Shown in pieces: positions 4,205 to 13,390 of a stretch of DNA of 64,000 bases (position 1 is the first letter of the stretch; every line of letters begins with the position of its first letter). The stretch comes from Marinobacter bryozoorum (GTDB taxonomy: Bacteria; Pseudomonadota; Gammaproteobacteria; Pseudomonadales; Oleiphilaceae). Position numbers and translations under genes: made by a program. Where the stretch lies: assembly GCF_023156245.1 (NCBI RefSeq), contig NZ_JAKZAH010000019.1, positions 1-64,000 on the forward strand, read 5' to 3'. The notes below the pieces were generated by a model. The model saw only the letters and a program-made list of their open reading frames with translations. It searched no databases and was not told the origin of the DNA.

Positions 4205-4234
4205 AAGGGAAACGAATTGCCGCTTTTTCAGCCA
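4205..4234. repeat. 30-bp direct repeat, copy 1 (copy 2 at 6874-6903)
   Basis: Thirty bases beginning AAGGGAAACG are repeated at 6874-6903 in the same orientation with one mismatch. Both copies are intergenic. Copy 1 lies between the flagellin promoter region and the aldehyde dehydrogenase; copy 2 lies between a hypothetical gene and the VapC toxin gene. Confidence 0.7.
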
Positions 4235-4349
4235 ATCCCGGGTAATGTCTTTGTTGGTTTCGGGAAAAATAGAGTCGCCAGAGGCTGGTGGCCCCTGGCG
4301 GTGTGGAATCAACCGGTTTTAAGGATGGGCCTGAAATTGAAGCATTCAC

Positions 4350-5816
4350 TCAGAACGGATACTGCCTGGGTGTTCGCTGAACGCTGACCCACTGCACCGT
4401 TGAGAACTCCTCGATGGCCCAGTCGCCGTTAAAGCGGCCCAGGCCGGAGTTTTTCTCGCCACCGAAGGGCAGGGCGGCTTCATCGTTCACCGGCATGTCG
4501 TTCACATGGGTCATCCCGGCCCGCACCTGGCGGGCGAAGTTCAGGCCCCGTTCCGTGTTGCCGCTGAACACCGCACTGGAAAGGCCGAACTCCGTGCCAT
4601 TGGCCAGTTCCAGGGCATGCTGTTCATCCCTCGCCTTCTGGATGCCGGCAATGGGTCCGAAGATCTCCTCGGCGCTCAGTTCCATATCGGGCGTTACATC
4701 ACCGAATACGTGGGGTGGAAGCATCTGCCCGCTGACTTCGCCCTCCAGCAACACCGTCGCCCCTTCTTTTTTCGCGCCTGCGATCTTGTGCTGCAGGCCC
4801 TCAAGCTGGGACTGATTGATAATCGGGCCAATGGCGGTTTCGATATCCGAAGGATCACCCACCTTGAGGGTTTTGACGTGGGCGACAAAGGCGGCCACGA
4901 ATTCGTCGTAGCGACTTTGATCGACAATGATCCGGTTGATGGCCATGCAGATCTGACCCTGATGCAGGAACTTGCCGAACACAGCGGCTTTCGCGGCCTG
5001 CTCTACATCCGCGTCATCCAGGACCACAAAGGGACTGTTGCCGCCCAGCTCCAGCGCTACCTTCTTTATATGGTCACCGCCGTTTGCAATGCGACCGATA
5101 TTCTTGCCGACAGGGGTAGAGCCGGTGAACGAAATCAGCGCAGGCACCGGGTGGGCGACGAAGTCGTCACCGATCTCGGAGCCGGCACCCACCACGACAC
5201 TCAGCACGCCGGCGGGCAGACCGGCCTCTTCGAAGATGCGAGCCAGCAAAAGCCCACCGGTTACCGGGGTATCGCTGGCAGGTTTGATCACCACTGCGTT
5301 ACCAAGGGCCAGCGCCGGAGCGACCGACCGCTGGGACAGGTGCAGGGGGAAGTTCCAGGGACTGATCACCCCGACCACGCCCAATGGGCGCCGGTAGACC
5401 AGGTTCTCCTTGCCCGGGATGTCGCTGGCCATGGTGTAGCCATGCGCCCTTGCCGGCATACTCGCCGATTCCAGGGTAATGCCGCGAGCGCTTTCCCACT
5501 CCACCATCGCCTTCAGGCGGGTGCTGCCGGATTCGCGAATCAGCCAGTCGATGATTTCCTCTTTACGCTCATCGAAAATCGACACGGCCCGAAGCAGCAC
5601 GGCGGCTCGCTCTGAAGGTGCCCGGTTGGCCCAGGCTTGCTGGGCGGCTTCGGCCTTACGGTAGGCCTTGTCCAGATCGTCTGAGTTGGCGAGCCGAATG
5701 CTCACCAGCTCCTCTCCGGAGTATGGGTTCATCACCGGGCGCGTGGTTTCACTACTGCCTTCACGCCATTCACCGGCCAGCGGTTGCAAATGAAAATCCT
5801 GGTACAGGTCAGCCAT
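4350..5816 (-). CDS. NAD(P)-dependent aldehyde dehydrogenase
   Basis: A 488-residue cytosolic enzyme that oxidises an aldehyde to the acid. The ALDH fold is complete: the substrate/cofactor segment SPWNFPLHL (about 152-160), the catalytic base Glu256 in VALELGG, and the nucleophile Cys290 in HQGQICM. Sequence style ([29 protein letters not shown]) resembles the vanillin/benzaldehyde/salicylaldehyde dehydrogenase group, so an aromatic aldehyde is a reasonable guess but unproven. It stands alone between flagellin 1 and hypothetical genes, with no pathway partners beside it. Confidence 0.9.
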
Positions 5817-5889
5817 TGCACATCTCCCTTCGCACTGAATGTGAGCCTGTCAGTGTAGCCGGTGGCGACCGTGGTTTCGGGTGGAATAG

Positions 5890-5982
5890 GGGAAACTACT
5901 GCGCGATGAGCAAGGCATAGCGAGCGATACCACACAGTGGTATGAGCCGGTGCTGAAAAGGATCGAGGTTATGGTGTACTGA
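5890..5982 (+). other. Possible C-terminal gene remnant in a 190-bp gap
   Basis: Between the aldehyde dehydrogenase and the next gene one frame lacks a start codon but reads KLLRDEQGIASDTTQWYEP, then VLKRIEVMVY and a stop at 5980-5982. The composition looks protein-like. I do not recognise the family. It may be a gene end left by deletion, or chance. Confidence 0.2.
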
Positions 5983-6008
5983 GTGGTTGTCTACAAGAGG
6001 ATCAGCCC

Positions 6009-6527
6009 CTACAACAGCTCGGCGTTTTCTATCAGGGACTTCAGTTCATCCGTGTTTAAAAAGTCGGTATCAACTTTAATGTAGCTCCTATCTGGTCCGT
6101 TCAAATAAACCATGCTTTTCTCATCCTTGAGCAGGTAATACGCTCGGAAATCCTGACCTTTCCATACCCCACTCTCTGATTGTTCTAAAAAAAACGTCCG
6201 GAAGTCCTGAATGTCGCTGGCATCACACGAGTCACTTGTCGCAGCGCTCCGCTCAAGTTCCATTGCTTTGGAGAAGAATTCCTCTGGCGGACATCCGTTG
6301 GTGGGAACAGTAGGTTGATTGGTGAATGTGAGATAATTTCGACCTGGCTCGTTGCCGTAACGAATTGCCAGGAACGTTTCATTATCCTGGACACCAATGG
6401 CGGCTAGCTGGCTTGGCACCTGAAAACGAAAGTCGGCAAAAACGAGGTCCACCTGTGTGTCTGCCGATGTATGCAGGCTAAACAGAATGCACGAGATGAG
6501 GGGCGCGACTGGGCTTATTCTGAACAT
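6009..6527 (-). CDS. Hypothetical secreted protein
   Basis: A 172-residue protein with an N-terminal signal peptide (hydrophobic stretch PLISCILFSLHTSA, probable cleavage near residue 22). The mature part has two cysteines (NGCPPEE and SDSCDAS) that could form a periplasmic disulfide. No family was recognised. Its start lies two bases after the stop of the upstream gene at 6529-6849, so the two are almost certainly co-transcribed and probably functionally linked. Base composition is more AT-rich than the surrounding core genes, suggesting acquired DNA. Confidence 0.65.
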   Translation of the reverse strand: MFRISPVAPLISCILFSLHTSADTQVDLVFADFRFQVPSQLAAIGVQDNETFLAIRYGNEPGRNYLTFTNQPTVPTNGCPPEEFFSKAMELERSAATSDSCDASDIQDFRTFFLEQSESGVWKGQDFRAYYLLKDEKSMVYLNGPDRSYIKVDTDFLNTDELKSLIENAELL

Positions 6528-6528
6528 A

Positions 6529-6849
6529 TTACAGCCCCATCAGGGCAAGTCGCAGAGCCGACTTGCTGTTTATCTGCACCCGTTGGCGACACACCTGGTA
6601 GATCTCACGTTCTTCTTCTGCGATGCGCGTCAGGATCTTTCGGAATTGCGTGATGAGGTACTTGAGGCTGGGGCGGGCTTGAGGTGGGCGGGGAACCAGG
6701 TCCATGTTTCCTGTGCATTTGCCTGCCTCAGATAAAGCCTCGTGGGCGAGCCGTGCTACTCGTTGATTTATCTGGGACGGCTTGGCTGTGCCTTCTCCCC
6801 AGAAATAATTAATGATATCCGAAACATATTTTTGCTCTTCCTGAGTCAT
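6529..6849 (-). CDS. Hypothetical cytoplasmic protein
   Basis: A 106-residue protein beginning MTQEEQKYVSDIINYFWGEG. I chose the ATG at 6849 because GGAGGAGCAAC precedes it; the open frame extends further upstream through low-quality sequence. It has a charged, helical composition with a basic C-terminal half (FRKILTRIAEEEREIYQVCR) and no signal peptide. No family was recognised. It forms a two-gene operon with the secreted protein downstream. The 30-bp repeat copy at 6874-6903 lies directly upstream. Confidence 0.6.
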   Translation of the reverse strand: MTQEEQKYVSDIINYFWGEGTAKPSQINQRVARLAHEALSEAGKCTGNMDLVPRPPQARPSLKYLITQFRKILTRIAEEEREIYQVCRQRVQINSKSALRLALMGL

Positions 6850-6873
6850 GTTGCTCCTCCCTGCCTTCCTGTT

Positions 6874-6903
6874 AAGGGAAACGGATTGCCGCTTTTTCAG
6901 CCA
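6874..6903. repeat. 30-bp direct repeat, copy 2
   Basis: Matches 4205-4234 with one mismatch in the same orientation. It sits just upstream of the 6529-6849 gene and just after the end of the VapC gene. Confidence 0.7.
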
Positions 6904-6922
6904 GCTGGGTACGACAAAAGGC

Positions 6923-7309
6923 CTAAATTCGGCGGACAGGTCCCGGATAGCGAGCCACCAGTTCATCCGCTGTGAGTAGCAAAAAACCTTCCGTCTCGGC
7001 CTGGGCAATCAAAATCCGATCGAACGGGTCTTTGTGAATATCAGGCAGGTGACTCACAGCAAGGGTGTGCCGGGATGAGATTGACAGCTCCTGATACCCA
7101 TTGTCGACAAGTCCGCGCCTTAACAGGTGCGGATCAACCTGGAAATCCGGTCGGCCGAGTCCACTCTTGATGACCACCTCCCAGATACTGGCGGCGCTGA
7201 AATACAATCTGTTGTCATCGTTGTTGACCAGAGTTACTGCCTGGGATGATAGCTTGTGGGGCTCTGCTGCAGCCCATAGGAGGATGTGGGTATCAAGAAG
7301 CAGGTTCAC
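6923..7309 (-). CDS. PIN-domain toxin, VapC-like (Phd-associated)
   Basis: A 128-residue PIN ribonuclease starting with GTG (VNLLLDTHILLWAAAE), four bases after the antitoxin stop codon. Acidic catalytic positions are present: Asp in LLLDTH, Glu in SIWEVVIK, Asp residues in HKDPFDRILIAQA, and a C-terminal TADE. The DTHILLW and HKDPFDR motifs are typical of the PIN subgroup paired with Phd/YefM antitoxins. Toxins of this kind cleave RNA when the antitoxin is lost. The longer open frame upstream overlaps the antitoxin and is not the start. Confidence 0.85.
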   Translation of the reverse strand: MNLLLDTHILLWAAAEPHKLSSQAVTLVNNDDNRLYFSAASIWEVVIKSGLGRPDFQVDPHLLRRGLVDNGYQELSISSRHTLAVSHLPDIHKDPFDRILIAQAETEGFLLLTADELVARYPGPVRRI

Positions 7310-7310
7310 A

Positions 7311-7550
7311 TCAACCTCCAAAGATCTCAGCGATCTCTTCCTGGCCCATCCGGTCGAAATCGTCCGGGACAGTAAACTCACCGGCCAGGAAGCCAATTCG
7401 CTTCTGTTGGCTTTGCTCGGGGCTATCAATGGCAGTGACGCGGACAACCGGTTTTCCCGCCTTGGCGATAATGAACCCTTCGCCTCTGGCAGCCTGCGCG
7501 ACTAGCTGTGATAAACGTGTCTTGGCTTCATGCATGTTCACAGATTCCAC
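7311..7550 (-). CDS. Phd/YefM-family antitoxin
   Basis: A 79-residue antitoxin with the Phd N-terminal fold (MESVNMHEAKTRLSQLV, then GEGFIIAKAGKPVVRVTA) and an acidic toxin-binding tail (DDFDRMGQEEIAEIF). It starts at GTG 7550 with AGGAGG six bases upstream. It is the first gene of an operon with the PIN toxin. Two CTTAGT repeats upstream are a likely operator. Confidence 0.85.
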   Translation of the reverse strand: MESVNMHEAKTRLSQLVAQAARGEGFIIAKAGKPVVRVTAIDSPEQSQQKRIGFLAGEFTVPDDFDRMGQEEIAEIFGG

Positions 7551-7564
7551 ATTTGACCTCCTAG

Positions 7565-7584
7565 CTTAGTCTATTTGACTTAGT
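7565..7584. promoter_or_regulatory. Candidate operator of the Phd/VapC module
   Basis: CTTAGT occurs at 7565-7570 and 7579-7584, 14 bases apart, just upstream of the antitoxin ribosome site. Repeated short sites of this kind are the usual autoregulatory targets of Phd-type antitoxins. Binding here is inferred. Confidence 0.35.
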
Positions 7585-7654
7585 TTAACAAAACAGAGGG
7601 GGCGGATCCAGAACTGAAGAGTAGTTACACCTCAGATTTCTGGCTGGGTCTATT

Positions 7655-7708
7655 CGTAAAGCCGCCAAAGTTGAGGTTCGGGGCTATGAGCAGAAAATCG
7701 GACACTGA
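7655..7708 (+). pseudogene. BrnT toxin remnant, last residues (copy 2)
   Basis: The frame RKAAKVEVRGYEQKIGH followed by a stop matches the tail of the BrnT remnant at 961-1041. Even less of the toxin survives here (about 17 codons). It overlaps the BrnA start at 7686 as in an intact operon. Confidence 0.5.
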
Positions 7709-7940
7709 CTGGAAGCACCTGGCTGAGATGGATGATGAGGCCATCGCCACTGATGACATCCCGGAACTGGATAGTGCTTTTTTTGAGCGGGCGAGGGCGC
7801 GTGTTCCGGCCAAGCAACCAGTAACCCTGCGAATTGATGAGGACGTTCTGCAGTGGTTCAGGTCTCAGGGGAAAGGGTATCAGACCCGCATCAACAAGTT
7901 GCCCAGGCTTTACATGGAAAGTCAGCAGTCACAACGGTGA
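7686..7940 (+). CDS. Orphan BrnA-family antitoxin (copy 2)
   Basis: An 84-residue open frame with the BrnA pattern: an acidic N-terminal part (DDIPELDSAFFERAR) followed by the RHH-type segment RVPAKQPVTLRIDEDVL and WFRSQGKGYQTRIN. It is in frame, unlike copy 1 at 1019-1272. It carries KLPRLYM where copy 1 has KLLRLYM; the proline lies in a conserved helix and may harm folding. No BrnT toxin or obvious promoter is left upstream, so it is probably non-functional or only a DNA-binding relic. Confidence 0.7.
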   Translation: MSRKSDTDWKHLAEMDDEAIATDDIPELDSAFFERARARVPAKQPVTLRIDEDVLQWFRSQGKGYQTRINKLPRLYMESQQSQR

Positions 7941-8073
7941 TGGTCGGCTTGATTCTGGTGGGTTGTCGCTGGGGCGCTCTCCGCATTGCTGTTCAATCTG
8001 CCGGCATTGGCGACTCTTGCGTGTAAATCGCAATCATGGTGGTATTTGGTCTGAACTGCGCTGAAGGACCAGC

Positions 8074-9045
8074 ATGACACGACCCCGCGAACAACTCGTT
8101 TCCTTAGCTGACACGCCTTACTACCACGTGGTGTCCCGCTGCGTGCGGCGGACGTTTCTGTGCGGTTTTGATCGCCATTCCGGCAAAAGCTACGAGCACC
8201 GCCGACAATGGATCGAAGAGCGTATCCGAATACTGGCCTCAATCTTTGCCATCGACCTCTGCGCCTACGCGGTTATGTCCAACCACTATCACCTGGTGGT
8301 TAGGATCAGCCCGGACGAGTCGAACAGCTGGAGCAACGACGAGGTTCTGCAGCGCTGGACCAGCGTATTCAAGGGGCCGTCGCTGGTTCAGCGTTATCTG
8401 GCGGGTAACGAATTGCATGGAGCCGAGCTTCGTGCAGTAGGGCAGGCTGCCGACGCATACCGTGAGCGCCTGACCAGCCTGAGCTGGTTCATGAAATGCC
8501 TGAATGAATCAATTGCAAAAGAGGCCAACCGGGAAGATGACTGCACTGGACATTTCTGGGAGTCACGTTTCAAATCGCAGGCGTTACTGACCGAAGAGGC
8601 GCTGCTCAGCTGCATGGCCTATGTAGACCTGAACCCGGTAAGGGCTGCCATAGCCGATACACCGGAAACATCGGACCACACCAGTATCAAGGAGAGAGTC
8701 GCCCCAACGTTCGACCTGGCGACGGCAATCCAGTCCCAAACGGAGCAGCAGTTTCTTTATCAGTTTCCGGTAACGCTGAAGCCGCTGGCCCGGTTTGAAG
8801 GTGGGGAGCGAGAGAGTAACGGGCGAGGGATCTTGTTCAGTCTGCAGGACTACCTGCAACTGGTCGATCAGACCGGTCGGGTCCTGCGCCCGGGCAAGCG
8901 GGGCGCCATCGCTGAAACAGAACTGCCCATCCTTGAGCGCCTGGGGCTCGACTTCGACGAATGGCTCAGTGAAGCCACGGAGTTCGAAGCCCGCTACCAG
9001 GCCAACCAGCGAGCCCATCATCGCCGACGACGAACGGCGGCCTGA
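8074..9045 (+). CDS. RAYT-type HUH (Y1) transposase, IS200-like
   Basis: A 323-residue single-strand DNA transposase of the TnpA_REP/Y1 family. The HUH metal site is NHYHLVV (about residue 70-76), preceded by PYYHVVSRCVRR. The later blocks GHFWESRFKSQ and YVDLNPVRA are characteristic of this family. AAGGA lies before the ATG. The C-terminus is odd: after FEAR it ends in the Arg/His-rich tail YQANQRAHHRRRRTAA, which is encoded by the first copy of a roughly 250-bp repeat. Members of this family that I know continue with a different conserved tail, so the gene end has probably been replaced. The element may mobilise the nearby palindromic repeats. Confidence 0.85.
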   Translation: MTRPREQLVSLADTPYYHVVSRCVRRTFLCGFDRHSGKSYEHRRQWIEERIRILASIFAIDLCAYAVMSNHYHLVVRISPDESNSWSNDEVLQRWTSVFKGPSLVQRYLAGNELHGAELRAVGQAADAYRERLTSLSWFMKCLNESIAKEANREDDCTGHFWESRFKSQALLTEEALLSCMAYVDLNPVRAAIADTPETSDHTSIKERVAPTFDLATAIQSQTEQQFLYQFPVTLKPLARFEGGERESNGRGILFSLQDYLQLVDQTGRVLRPGKRGAIAETELPILERLGLDFDEWLSEATEFEARYQANQRAHHRRRRTAA

Positions 9046-9245
9046 TTCCCCCCCTTTGTCATCTCACACTCACCAACTGGCGCCTGGCCCGGGCGCTGCT
9101 TCGTCTGCCATTCGGTGAAAGCGCCGGGTTTTGCCTGATATTCCAAATGCTTAAGTCTGGGGGGCGAGTTACTGGGTTTGGGGTGTTTAGAAGGCAGTGC
9201 TGGAGAGGCTGGGTCTGGATTTCTTTGGAGGGTGTCTGTCCCTGT
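8995..9245 (+). repeat. RAYT-tail repeat unit 1 (type A)
   Basis: A unit of 251 bp from TACCAGGCCAACCAGC, inside the transposase coding region, to the GGGTGTCTGTCCCTGT end. Its first 51 bases encode the tail and stop codon of the transposase. The interior contains a GCGCC/GGCGC hairpin near 9079-9095. The type A variant is recognised by CCAAATGCTTAAGTCTG in the second half, shared with unit 4. Confidence 0.9.
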
Positions 9246-9250
9246 TGGTT

Positions 9251-9501
9251 TACCAGGCCAACCAGCGAGCCCATCATCGCCGACGACGAACGGCGGCCTG
9301 ATTCCCCCCTTTGTCATCTCACACTCACCAACTGGCGCCTGGCCCGGGCACTGCCTCGTCTGCTATTCGATGAAACCGCCGGGTTTTGCCTGATATTCCA
9401 GATTCTCAAGGCCGGGGGAGCGAGTTACCGGGTTTAGGGTGTATAGAAGGCAGTGCTGGTGTGGCTGGGTCTGGATTTCTTTGGAGGGTGTCTGTCCCTG
9501 T
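9251..9501 (+). repeat. RAYT-tail repeat unit 2 (type B)
   Basis: A 251-bp tandem copy of unit 1, directly following it after five bases, again starting TACCAGGCC and ending GTGTCTGTCCCTGT. The type B variant has CCAGATTCTCAAGGCCG in the second half. Together with unit 1 it fills most of the gap between the transposase and the next gene. No gene is visible in 9502-9635. Confidence 0.9.
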
Positions 9502-9635
9502 CGGCTCCGATATCCCTCCACTTCTGTTAATCGGAATGAGTCAGTGTAGCGCGATCCCGGCCCGTCGGGCTTTCCTAAAGGTTTTGGCCTGCCTGCCGAT
9601 AGTTGCTACATACCATTCCTTCAGGAGGAAAAGCC

Positions 9636-10160
9636 ATGGTAGCCCCCATTATCGGACACGGCTCTGACGCCACCAGTCGGGCTGTTGGAAAGGCATCGGG
9701 ACCTGCGACCGCGACCCGCGCCAGCACTGAAACCCGGACTGAGGCGCAGGCGGTTATCCGCACGCCGGCTGACGCCATCAACGTGCTTCGTGCCCGGATG
9801 GAGCAGCGGCTGGAGCAGGCTATGGGCGCCCTGGCTAATAAACCTTCGGTTGCCTCCCACAAATACAGTGCCCAGGCCCAGCCCCCGACGCCCACTGACG
9901 TTGCGAACAGGATACTCGGATTCGTACAGAACCGCCTGCAGGCCGAAGCAGAGGCTGGTGCTGACACGGAACGGTTGACCGAACTCTTCGCCCAGGCCCG
10001 TGCAGGCATCGAGAAAGGCTACGGGGAAGCAAGGGAACAGATCCAGGCTCTAGGCCTGATGACTGAAACCCTTGCCGTCGAAATCGATAAAGGCTTTGAC
10101 CTCATCCAGGACGGCCTTCTGAACCTTGAGAAGCTCTTTTTAGAGAAAGAGACTGAATAA
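9636..10160 (+). CDS. DUF5610-like hypothetical protein
   Basis: A 174-residue cytoplasmic protein, start at ATG 9636 with AGGAGG nine bases upstream. The N-terminal 55 residues are Ala/Thr-rich and probably disordered. A helical C-terminal domain (TPTDVANRILGFVQNRLQ, then LTELFAQARAGIEKGYGEA and GFDLIQDGLLNLEKLF) resembles DUF5610, whose function is not established. It stands between RAYT-tail repeat units. A hairpin follows the gene. Confidence 0.7.
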   Translation: MVAPIIGHGSDATSRAVGKASGPATATRASTETRTEAQAVIRTPADAINVLRARMEQRLEQAMGALANKPSVASHKYSAQAQPPTPTDVANRILGFVQNRLQAEAEAGADTERLTELFAQARAGIEKGYGEAREQIQALGLMTETLAVEIDKGFDLIQDGLLNLEKLFLEKETE

Positions 10161-10175
10161 ATAGCTGCCGGTATA

Positions 10176-10209
10176 GGTCAAGGGAGGTACCCCGGAAAAG
10201 CCCTTGACC
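10176..10209 (+). terminator. Hairpin after the DUF5610 gene
   Basis: GGTCAAGGG and CCCTTGACC form a perfect nine-base stem 15 bases after the stop codon. There is no T tract, so this may be a weak or Rho-assisted terminator. Confidence 0.4.
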
Positions 10210-10278
10210 GGACTGGTGTCCATCTATAACATTCATATGAAATAGATGTTAATGGCCGAGGGAGACCGGGGAGCTCAA

Positions 10279-10485
10279 ATGGCGCTGTCATTCGTAAAGA
10301 AGATGTTCACAAAAGAAGACTCAGAAACCAAAACCGCCAGCACGGAAGAAGTGCAGGTGAGTAAGGGCGGCGAGGTGCAACAGCAGGAAGTCCAGAAAGG
10401 CGGGCACGGACACGGCGAGGGCGCCTGCTGCGGCTACCAGGCCAACCAGCGAGCCCATCATCGCCGACGACGAACGGCGGCCTGA
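10279..10485 (+). CDS. Small Cys/His protein fused to the RAYT tail
   Basis: A 68-residue open frame starting at ATG 10279 (GGGGAG seven bases upstream). The first 52 residues are hydrophilic and end in a metal-binding-looking GGHGHGEGACCG. The last 16, YQANQRAHHRRRRTAA, are encoded by repeat unit 3 and are identical to the transposase tail. The junction lies between GGC and TAC at 10434/10435, and the frame is kept. The native C-terminus, probably more His/Cys-rich, has been lost or replaced. Whether the chimera is expressed is unknown. Confidence 0.6.
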   Translation: MALSFVKKMFTKEDSETKTASTEEVQVSKGGEVQQQEVQKGGHGHGEGACCGYQANQRAHHRRRRTAA

Positions 10486-10725
10486 TTCCCCCCTTTGTCA
10501 TCTCACACTCACCAACTGGCGCCTGGCCCGGGCGCTGCTTCGTCTGCCATTCGGTGAAAGCGCCGGGTTTTGCCTGATATTCCAGATTCTCAAGGCCGGG
10601 GGAGCGAGTTACCGGGTTTAGGGTGTATAGAAGGCAGTGCTGGTGTGGCTGGGTCTGGATTTCTTTGTCCCTGTTCAGTGTCTGTCTGTGTGTTGCTGTT
10701 GGGCTTGGAGGGTGTCTGTCCCTGT
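10435..10725 (+). repeat. RAYT-tail repeat unit 3 (type B, with extended end)
   Basis: Starts TACCAGGCC inside the small Cys/His gene and follows the type B sequence of unit 2. Near its end GGAGGGTGTCT is missing, and about 50 bases of GT-rich sequence with repeated TGTCTGT motifs have been added before the final GTGTCTGTCCCTGT. Confidence 0.9.
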
Positions 10726-10732
10726 CCAGTGT

Positions 10733-10937
10733 CCTGATTCCCCCCCTTTGTCATCTCACACTCACCAACTGGCGCCTGGCCCGGGCACTGCTTCGTCTGC
10801 CATTCGGTGAAAGCGCCGGGTTTTGCCTGATATTCCAAATGCTTAAGTCTGGGGGGCGAGTTACTGGGTTTGGGGTGTTTAGAAGGCAGTGCTGGTGCGG
10901 CTGGGTCTGGATTTCTTTGGAGGGTGTCTGTCCCTGT
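10733..10937 (+). repeat. RAYT-tail repeat unit 4 (type A, 5'-truncated)
   Basis: Lacks the first roughly 45 bases (the peptide-coding part) and starts at CCTGATTCCCCC. The rest follows type A as in unit 1. It is followed by a further partial copy of the last 30 bases (10945-10972). No gene is seen in the whole 10486-11482 gap. Confidence 0.9.
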
Positions 10938-11005
10938 TGGTTGTTTGGATTTCTTTGGAGGGTGTCTGTCCCGATTTCTTTCCTGTCTGTCCCTGTTCAG
11001 GGCTT

Positions 11006-11186
11006 GGTCAGACCCCGGGGGGAGGCCTGTCGTCCGGGGTCGGATCCGATTTTTCTGCAGGAAAATATCGGCTCTGACCCCATGATCTGGCTGTTGGTGG
11101 CGTGGGCCTGGCTTTCGGGTTGGTTTGGGCGTTGTGAATATGGGGTCAGACCCTATTTTCCCTGCGGGAAAAATGGGTCAGACCCC
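11006..11186. repeat. REP/BIME-like palindromes (GGTCAGACC type)
   Basis: Four copies of a palindrome with core GGGGTC-A-GACCCC occur at 11006-11016, 11071-11081 (opposite orientation), 11142-11153 and 11175-11186. The last two flank an inner inverted repeat (ATTTTCCC-TGC-GGGAAAAAT), giving a BIME-like pair. Such palindromes are the known targets of RAYT transposases, and one is encoded 2 kb upstream. Confidence 0.75.
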
Positions 11187-11364
11187 GGGGGGCGCGCGCC
11201 GTCCGTGGCCAAAAAATCTTTGTCTTTTCTTTTTTCCGTGTCCTTCCGTGGTTTCCGTGGCAAACAGTCCTTTTTTCTTTCCATCATTTTTCCGCGTCCT
11301 TCAGCGGATTCAGCGGCCGACAAAGCTCTTTTACATTCCTTTACAAAAAGCCCCGTTTTTTTTC

Positions 11365-11391
11365 TAAAGGAACCCACGCCGGCGCCGTTAA
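11365..11391 (+). promoter_or_regulatory. Sigma-28 (FliA) promoter of flagellin 2
   Basis: TAAA-N15-GCCGTTAA, one mismatch from the FliA consensus, 91 bases before the flagellin start. It is the expected class for a flagellin gene. Confidence 0.75.
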
Positions 11392-11482
11392 GTGGATCAA
11401 CAGGGCGGCGCTACCAAACCGACGAATGGGCGCCAGACCTTTTCCACGATGAAACGACACAACCTGTCGAAGGAGAAGCACC

Positions 11483-13390
11483 ATGGCTCTCGGTATCAAC
11501 ACTAACGTAGCCTCACTGAACGCTCAGAACCAGCTGAGCAAGTCCCAGGGCATGAACGACCAGGCCTTGCAGCGCCTGTCCTCCGGTCTGCGCATCAACT
11601 CTGCGAAAGACGATGCAGCTGGTCTCGCCATCTCCACTCGCTTCAGCTCCCAGATTTCTGGTCTGAACGTGGCGACTCGTAACGCCAACGATGCCATCTC
11701 ACTGTCCCAGACAGCTGAAGGTGCGTTGAACGAAATCACCAATAACCTGCAGCGGATCCGTGAACTGGCGGTTCAGTCTGCCAACTCCACCAACAGCTCA
11801 TCCGACCGGGACGCACTGAACCAGGAAGTGCAGCAGCGCATTCAGGAAGTGAACCGGATTGCGGGTCAGACTTCCTTCAACGGCCTGAAGGTTCTGGACG
11901 GCACCTTTGGTGCTGCAAACTTCCAGGTGGGTGCCAATGTTGGTGAAACGATTGGTCTGGACCTGACCAAGAGTGTGCGCAGCAGTGCGATCGGCGGTGT
12001 CGCCCAGGCTACCTCTGTGGATTTGAGCTCGGTGATCTCCGAAGGAGTTGAGGGTGTGACCGGAGCTGCGGCTACCTACGCTATCGACGCGACCAGTTTG
12101 ATTGGTGACTACAGCACCACGGGAGCCTCTTCCGGAACATCGACGATTCAGGTCACCACTCCTGCTGCGGATGGGGATAGTATTGAAATAAACGGAGTTA
12201 CCTTCACCTTTGCTCAAGGTGGCGCCTCTGGCGAAAGTGTTGTTGACGCGAACAACGTTACTATCACCAGGGACATTTCCGGGACCCCATTAACGGCAGG
12301 TACTACAGCAGCAGCACTAGAGGCAGCCATTGATGCCTACAAAGCAGATGGTGCTTTCGCGGATGATCGATTCGACACTGTTACAGCGTCAGCATCGACG
12401 GACACCGTAACGCTCACCTACAGTGAGAACGGCCTGCCAAGCACCAACGGCTACACGATTGGTGCCGCCAGTGGAACCCTCGCTACAACCAATACTCTGG
12501 ATGCGTCGGGTGACGATGGCGACACAAGCGCCAACATCAGTTTCACCGTTACCGATCCTGAAGGAAATGCGCTCGCAGTCACTCTTGACAGTAACATCAC
12601 GTCGACGGCTGACCTCGTAACAGCGATTCAGGGGCAAACTGGCTATGGCGCGGCCACCTTCACGGTTGCTGCTGACGGTGATAATGTTGTATTCACCGAT
12701 GGATCTGAAATAGATGGCAGCTTCAGCATCAGCGGCACCGATGCTGCAACTATTACCGCTGCAAACGTGGCGGAAAGCACATCGGCTGGTGCGACTGAGG
12801 TGGTAGAAGTGCCAGCAAGCACTGTTACCCTGGGCGCCACTGACCTCACCTTCCAGTTTGGTGACAGTGAGGCGTCTGCAGTTGCAGCCGGCACTTATAC
12901 TTCCGCCGAAAACTTTGTTGATGCGGTCAACAAGGCTCTGGGTGGCAGCGCAAGTGCGGTCCTGGGTGAGGACAATGTATTGACCATCACCTCAGGCGAG
13001 GACTTCACGGTTGAGGCAGCTGGGGATGCTGCGACAGTCTTCACTGGTGCCAATGTCGGAGACATTACCGCGTCAGGCAGCCTGAATGACGCAAACGTCT
13101 CTTCCATTGCCGGGGCGAATGCAACCATTCAGCGCGTAGACGCTGCTTTGACTACGGTCAGTGATCTGCGCAGCAGCTTTGGTGCGATCCAGAACCGGTT
13201 TGAATCCACCATTGCCAACCTCGCGACTTCTGTCGAGAACATCAGCGCCTCCAACAGCCGTATCCTGGACGCTGACTTCGCTTCAGAAACCGCCAACCTG
13301 GCCAAATCCCAGGTACTGCAACAGGCCGGTATCTCCGTCCTGGCCCAGGCCAACGCCCGGCCGCAGCAGGTTCTGTCCCTCCTGCAGTAA
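11483..13390 (+). CDS. fliC: Flagellin (635 aa)
   Basis: Filament subunit with complete conserved ends: N-terminal [19 protein letters not shown] and [21 protein letters not shown]-terminal block ending [12 protein letters not shown]. The central roughly 370 residues are Thr/Ala/Asp-rich, variable and unlike those of the flagellin on the minus strand. The ATG at 11483 is preceded by GAAGGAGAAGCACC. A sigma-28 promoter lies upstream and a terminator separates it from flaG. Being upstream of flaG-fliD-fliS, this copy is probably the ancestral one. Confidence 0.96.

Follow-up and report, generated by a model that had tools for sequence, protein, structure and literature searches.

Anchored right-end copies beside a subclass 2.3 RAYT transposase gene in Marinobacter bryozoorum and related loci

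How does the end of a transposase gene come to be copied several times behind that gene, and is the transposase itself the agent of the copying? The question is raised by a 64,000-nucleotide (nt) stretch of the Marinobacter bryozoorum genome (assembly GCF_023156245.1, contig NZ_JAKZAH010000019.1, positions 1 to 64,000; hereafter the window), in which a gene for a RAYT (TnpA_REP) transposase at 8074-9045 is followed by repeat units that begin inside its last codons and extend over 8995-11001. An earlier note, made from the letters of the window, had described four such units. We find that the units end at a nearly constant distance from a short core sequence, that the same core accompanies many related RAYT genes, and that tandem duplications in those loci share the same junction. 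The best overall reading, which we consider probable, is that the enzyme would nick at a fixed distance from the core and that DNA ending at this nick would be re-inserted there.

The repeat units and the end of the transposase gene

Alignment confirmed the repeats themselves. The four units are real at the positions first given, with small boundary corrections that place them, all on the forward strand, at 8995-9250, 9251-9506, 10435-10732 and 10733-10942 (boundaries from the alignment together with the cut rule developed below). Units 1 to 3 share the same start base (TACCAGGCC) and, as had been reported, run into a stop codon, TGA, after 16 codons. Unit 1 comprises the last 16 RAYT codons and the 3' flank up to the presumed cut position, and terminates at the right-end (RE) core TGTCTGTCC, 187 nt past the RAYT stop codon; the core GGGTGTCTGTCCCTG occupies 9230-9244, within which TGTCTGTC begins at 9233 (stop +187). 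Unit 2 starts 18 nt past the core start of unit 1 and has its own core start at 9489; its right end follows from aligning it with unit 1 and applying the cut rule. The end of unit 3 is rearranged and contains two cores, at 10679 and 10713. Unit 4, which opens in the region of the RAYT stop codon, starts 20 nt past the core start at 10713 and has its own at 10925. Two shorter copies on the same strand had been overlooked: a 5'-truncated one at 10943-10983, which starts 18 nt past the core start of unit 4 and has its own core start at 10963, and a shortest, core-only copy at 10984-11001 (right end approximate), which starts 21 nt past the latter. The proposed division into two variants in the order A-B and B-A holds for the second half of the unit, where units 1 and 4 carry tail A and units 2 and 3 tail B; it fails in the first half, where unit 3 resembles units 1 and 4 and not unit 2, the latter carrying private changes.

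Chance origin of these repeats is excluded. A 256-base unit query matched only these four places of its own genome (4.26 Mb in 126 contigs; all 35 candidates scored), with E-values of 2e-100 to 9e-131, which rules out a genome-wide dispersed repeat. The same search in 57 relatives, with at most 13 candidates scored per genome, recovered only the RAYT tail (51 nt) in one genome and a 29-nt scrap in one genome, and Rfam at the gathering score matched no known RNA over 7600-11500. No signal was found at the left end of the unit, its boundary on that side being the presumed cut position of the unit before it. Units that resemble each other at 93-99% in a draft genome of 126 contigs could be imagined to be an artefact of assembly. 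This we regard as very improbable: the units differ at many positions, all of them lie inside one contig of 79.9 kb, and two genomes in a single contig each, G086 and G092, likewise contain one-way series of RE cores.

The gene from which the first unit extends encodes, on the forward strand, a protein of 323 residues (Y1_Tnp, E 4e-5), in which N70HYH73, W162E163 and Y183VDLNP188 are invariant across 15 aligned sequences and the HuH-Y distance is 110 residues. Since these motifs and this distance agree with the class values of a survey of the family (PMC6006769, as far as the consulted part goes), the window transposase is, by its sequence, an HUH/Y1 enzyme of TnpA_REP (RAYT) subclass 2.3. Homologues at an E-value of 1e-20 or better were found in 22 of 120 genomes of the genus, its own included, which has six RAYT matches, some of them partial. 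The earlier note had held that the C-terminus of the protein was unusual and that unit 1 might be an insertion. This was not borne out: the RAYT aligns over its full length, including the tail, with 14 homologues at 62-75% identity, the pattern Y-x2-N-x-RA...RRR-x-AA is common to the six nearest, and the remaining ones close with a similar basic tail. The conserved tail rules out unit 1 as an insertion. As, in addition, none of 53 duplications detected downstream of RAYT genes in 74 loci (see below) starts within 10 nt of the base at which the window units start, unit 1 is the native right end of the RAYT and the source of the other units.

End cores and the junctions of tandem duplications

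Downstream of 22 full-length Marinobacter copies of the gene, a short motif stands at stop +163 to +209 in 17 cases; in 5 no motif was found between stop +120 and +260. For a wider survey, 79 loci with named records were fetched, in part from genomes that had also contributed to these 22 copies, and 74 loci from 52 genomes were usable, 5 being dropped for having no stop or no full match. A de novo k-mer count gave TGCCTGTC as the commonest 8-mer at stop +60 to +360, present in 55 of the 74 loci, as against 6 of 63 at +1400 to +1700. The core TGYCTGTC occurs within 400 nt downstream in 56/74 loci, 112-225 nt past the stop, whereas its reverse complement and a reversed control occur there in 3/74 and 4/74. 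Upstream of the start it is the reverse-complement core that is found, in 44 of 73 loci (locus L174 being left out of the upstream counts) and 74-151 nt before the start, with the forward core in 7 of 73. The block conserved on both sides is GTGCCTGTCC. Both cores are present in 39 of the 74 loci, the window copy being without the left one, and at least one RE core is found in 45 of the 52 genomes. Many subclass 2.3 elements thus appear to be bounded by inverted cores.

In each of the 74 loci the gene, together with 1200 nt ahead of its start and 1500 nt beyond its stop, was searched for tandem duplications of at least 9 nt, which gave 87, 53 downstream, 33 upstream and 1 within the gene. The junctions of 32 of the 53 downstream ones, from 27 loci, lie 17-23 nt past the core start, where 1.16 would be expected from positions in the same loci. 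As the duplicated stretch in these 32 ranges from 9 to 693 nt while the junction stays 17-23 nt from the core, the left end varies and the right end is fixed. At the mirrored distance upstream of the gene 14 of 33 junctions are found (0.48 expected), and in ten further Marinobacter loci, the window included, 7 of 13 junctions fit (0.42 expected); four loci account for these seven, and one of the four belongs to a genome that was already present in the first set. The window's own long duplication was missed by the automated search, which allowed no indels; its boundaries, read from alignments, fall at 18 nt (unit 1 to 2), 20 nt (unit 3 to 4), 18 nt (unit 4 to the short copy) and 21 nt (to the next).

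Tandem arrays commonly arise by slippage, and arrays of Pseudomonas REPs with their flanks are known (PMC3116915, in the part consulted); ordinary replication slippage or unequal recombination at a fragile spot might grow such arrays with no involvement of the transposase. We think this quite improbable, given that the junction is fixed relative to the core in many genera and is mirrored at both ends. Microhomology is absent at 23 of the 32 fitting junctions, on which ground slippage through microhomology was rejected, and duplications are about thirteen-fold rarer in five RAYT-free loci, at 0.40 per 10 kb (3 in 75 kb) versus 5.23 per 10 kb (53) downstream of RAYTs. No clear target-site duplication is present in the outer flanks of 39 pairs: the mean longest direct repeat is 5.10 versus 4.81 (standard deviation 0.13) in shuffled pairs, and 4.87 once a single pair, whose 14-nt match contains a core, is set aside.

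A putative nick and its place among known systems

These footprints would follow if the RAYT recognised the end core TGYCTGTCC and nicked one strand beyond it, at a fixed distance of about 18-23 nt (approximately 20 nt) past the core start. Any single strand ending at such a cut, with its 3'-OH at the RE and an arbitrary 5' end, could then be joined to the 5' end held by the enzyme, and the far side of the joined piece would be closed by the host. The outcome would be nested, 5'-truncated copies in one orientation that share one end position. In the window, units 2, 3 and 4 and the two short copies would be products of such RE re-insertion, and a piece with a DUF5610 gene and a truncated small gene would be other DNA that became trapped at the cut separating unit 2 from unit 3. 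The core with its steady position, the fixed junction, the variable 5' ends and the absence of a clear target duplication can be read from the sequence itself; the nick and the enzyme's role, as well as the involvement of single strands and the order of events in the window, we infer from these genome footprints. HUH Y1 enzymes are described as cutting one strand, with the 5' side held on the tyrosine and a 3'-OH left, and the E. coli TnpA_REP is reported to cut 5' and 3' of REPs and also at discrete distant sites (PMC8266576, in the part consulted). The earlier note had tied the repeat to the RAYT and had seen in it more than simple tandem growth, and this much stands; the gene conversion that it considered would not be needed if the A-B and B-A order is read as a single array A-B-B-A later split by captured DNA.

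Several observations weigh against a fixed nick. The window copy and most Marinobacter copies are without a recognisable left core, the core as written is missing in 18 of the 74 loci (some of which have near variants by eye), and the sequence at the presumed cut is not conserved. Junctions outside the 17-23 nt interval, which was itself chosen after the first set had been seen, make up 21 of the 53 downstream and 19 of the 33 upstream cases, and 6 of the 13 in the further set do not fit. Many of the duplications are 9-14 nt long, starting at the edge of the core and ending at the cut, and these could represent a staggered break that was filled in. No biochemical test of subclass 2.3 was found in the literature consulted.

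Among described systems the nearest is subclass 2.3 itself. The window transposase and its relatives share with the subclass, as given in the consulted part of Quentin et al. 2018 (PMC6006769), the NHYH, WE and YVDLNP motifs, a length of about 325 residues, the HuH-Y distance of 110, a long C-terminal domain and the presence of several diverged copies per genome in marine gammaproteobacteria. They differ in their flanks: that survey looked for REP-like sequences of subclass 2.3 both automatically and by hand and found none, whereas here a linear core stands at both ends of many members. TIRtrons (TIRYT; Di Nocera et al. 2013, PMC3733652) have a RAYT-like gene with inverted repeats on either side, which recalls those loci here that carry both cores, the window copy not among them, and further repeats grouped in the genome, but their motif is GGGGWSAS and the core here is GGACAGGCAC/GTGCCTGTCC; GGGGWSAS is not found at our ends, where the left-end consensus is GGACAGGCAC and the base before it is not conserved. 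Quentin and colleagues placed 20 of 26 TIRYT in subclass 2.1, and in the consulted part of the TIRtron paper no description of anchored duplications was found. REPtrons and the tandem clusters of REPINs (PMC3116915, PMC8266576, each in part) also combine an HUH enzyme with adjoining repeats, and tandem clusters that include flanking sequence are known among them; the arrays here differ in being one-way, 5'-variable and 3'-fixed. Neither a GT[AG]G foot nor a conserved palindrome of the REPtron kind was seen within 15 nt before to 27 nt after the core start, no dedicated search for REPs having been made. Elements of the IS200/IS605 family such as IS608 use HUH Y1 chemistry, select their cleavage sites by guide sequences next to terminal hairpins and leave no clear target duplication. 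Our loci agree with them in the chemistry and in the lack of a clear target duplication and differ in their terminal inverted cores and in the prevalence of partial end copies.

Among the papers listed by the literature search none was seen to describe anchored arrays, which does not establish their absence from print. The arrays are a family-wide signature not found in the literature consulted, and they fit into the RAYT world as one of its variants, not as a system of a new kind. Subclass 2.3 is a RAYT group with several copies per genome for which the consulted part of the survey (PMC6006769) names no DNA substrate; the core at both ends, together with the cut position derived from the footprint, supplies a candidate substrate on which cleavage could be tested. 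A real nick would explain the pile-up of partial transposase ends, short arrays and trapped genes beside RAYTs, and would offer a possible route by which toxin-antitoxin islands grow in marine bacteria.

Other DNA at the presumed cut and the surrounding loci

The host DNA that separates the presumed cut of unit 2 from unit 3 spans 928 nt (9507-10434, delimited by position) and carries two genes on the forward strand. The DUF5610 gene (9636-10160) stands beside other genes in those relatives that were examined. The small gene (10279-10485) has lost its native end, which unit 3 replaces after TGCTGCGGC (10434), giving the gene the tail YQANQRAHHRRRRTAA; in 11 relatives the native end is CCGSCS, in one case CCGGCS, followed by a stop. 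The 5' flank of the small gene is common to four relatives back to about 10203, and a query with 9481-9660, the stretch before the DUF5610 gene, matched nothing useful in relatives. The DUF5610 gene, the small gene and the flagellin gene are not neighbours in the relatives examined (mostly with 1.5-kb flanks, longer for five), and hence no empty form of the 928-nt segment came to light.

The earlier note had also proposed a non-autonomous element mobilised by the adjacent transposase. In a refined form of this idea, two RE cuts, made possible by an existing tandem copy, would free a unit precisely bounded at TACCAGG, which would then have inserted into the small gene; units 2 and 3 do share the exact start base, and unit 3 does replace the native end of that gene. 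Against this, the lost end of the gene (12 nt, as in the relative L100) has at least four mismatches everywhere in 10435-11482, its best place having 4. Further units adjoin unit 3 directly, and no copy exists elsewhere in the genome. We therefore consider such an element unlikely. The transposase remains the likely agent of copying; it is the free element that is doubtful, the unit being found nowhere else in the genome and having no left-end signal. Our preferred account of the segment is that the 928 nt with both genes were trapped between adjoining units of an A-B-B-A array, rather than that unit 3 moved into the small gene, because units 2 and 3 are both of type B, the lost gene end is absent downstream and trapping is seen at locus L060. 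There a 59-nt piece of other DNA starts 21 nt past a core start, and its source, 85% identical, lies on another contig of that genome.

Could such trapping be general? A tentative idea, to which we give a modest chance, is that the right-end arrays of subclass 2.3 RAYTs are platforms for DNA capture. At the fixed nick the element would add copies of its own end and would also trap genes, with toxin-antitoxin pairs foremost, and cassette arrays like those of integrons would build up in the absence of an integrase. Two comparisons, both suggestive only, bear on it. Core-delimited segments near RAYTs are rich in toxin-antitoxin families: their 145 open reading frames include ParE 9, HipA_C 4, and BrnT, HigB_toxin, HigB-like and HicB-like 3 each, as against HipA_C 2 and Fic 2 among 145 sampled outside such segments at the same loci, these counts covering the 25 commonest of 78 and of 98 families, so that single-member families, such as the window's own BrnA in the outside set, are mostly not among them. 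The inside set was drawn from 186 frames by dropping RAYT-like ones and sizes outside 50-450 residues, and the outside sample was taken from 210. Secondly, where genomes have blocks in common, the left border of the block falls 17-25 nt past a core start in 13 of 143 cases (1.25 expected) and the right border in 1 of 135. Telling against the idea, 2 of the 13 left borders derive from an RE and another two are 8 nt from each other; left-border bins are also raised at 35-43 (5), 44-52 (9) and 53-61 nt (4), as are right-border bins at 8-16 (6) and 12-20 nt before the core (5).

Long one-way core arrays were observed at L092 (genome G092), where they are interleaved with toxin-antitoxin-like genes, and at L060 (G032), where 17 motif copies lie downstream of one RAYT. 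Because several genomes share the chromosomal flank beside the RAYT array (L056, L057, L060, L061, L066, L089 and others), the array site seems to be old and conserved, with variable content.

The window array sits in an island of about 7.1 kb (4227-11329, break points by eye) between two divergent flagellin genes; of the 21 relative loci read, 13 have the starts of their matches to these genes within 381-482 bp of each other. Upstream of the RAYT, 6926-7937 carries genes for a Phd-type antitoxin and a BrnA antitoxin, and the open reading frame adjoining Phd looks by eye like a PIN toxin. A 660-nt block at about 6929-7588 is common to the window and L061 at 70% identity. Between the array and the flagellin gene, 11006-11192 holds a second type of repeat, GGTCAGACCCCGGGG, with inverted copies nearby; by eye it resembles GGGGWSAS (TIRYT).

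Two further features were noticed in the family. In 4 of 124 genomes, RAYT genes of subclass 2.3 are interrupted by a 74-nt stretch that lies between the codons for F161 and W162 (L085:4658-4731, L086:5204-5277, L057:3936-4009, L056:7479-7552, L093:145-218 and 2905-2978), and partial matches of 30-31 nt occur in three more. At 66-73/74 identical positions, the stretch is better conserved than the gene in every pair compared; it folds into up to four hairpins (three were folded, z -3.3 to -5.4), one pair of stem 1 varying between T-A, G-C and C-G. Both halves of the interrupted genes still differ mainly at third codon positions, and a -1 frameshift, bypass, a split gene or precise excision could be involved. 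The second feature is found upstream of RAYT genes, though not of the window copy: 9 of 70 loci have LexA-like boxes, CTGT-N8-ACAG, no more than 150 nt from the start (for example L138, L141, L142, L144 and L167, at about -30, and L127 and L128), and the looser CTG-N10-CAG occurs in 14/70 versus 3/73 downstream controls. The presence of these boxes suggests that part of the RAYT family may be under SOS control.

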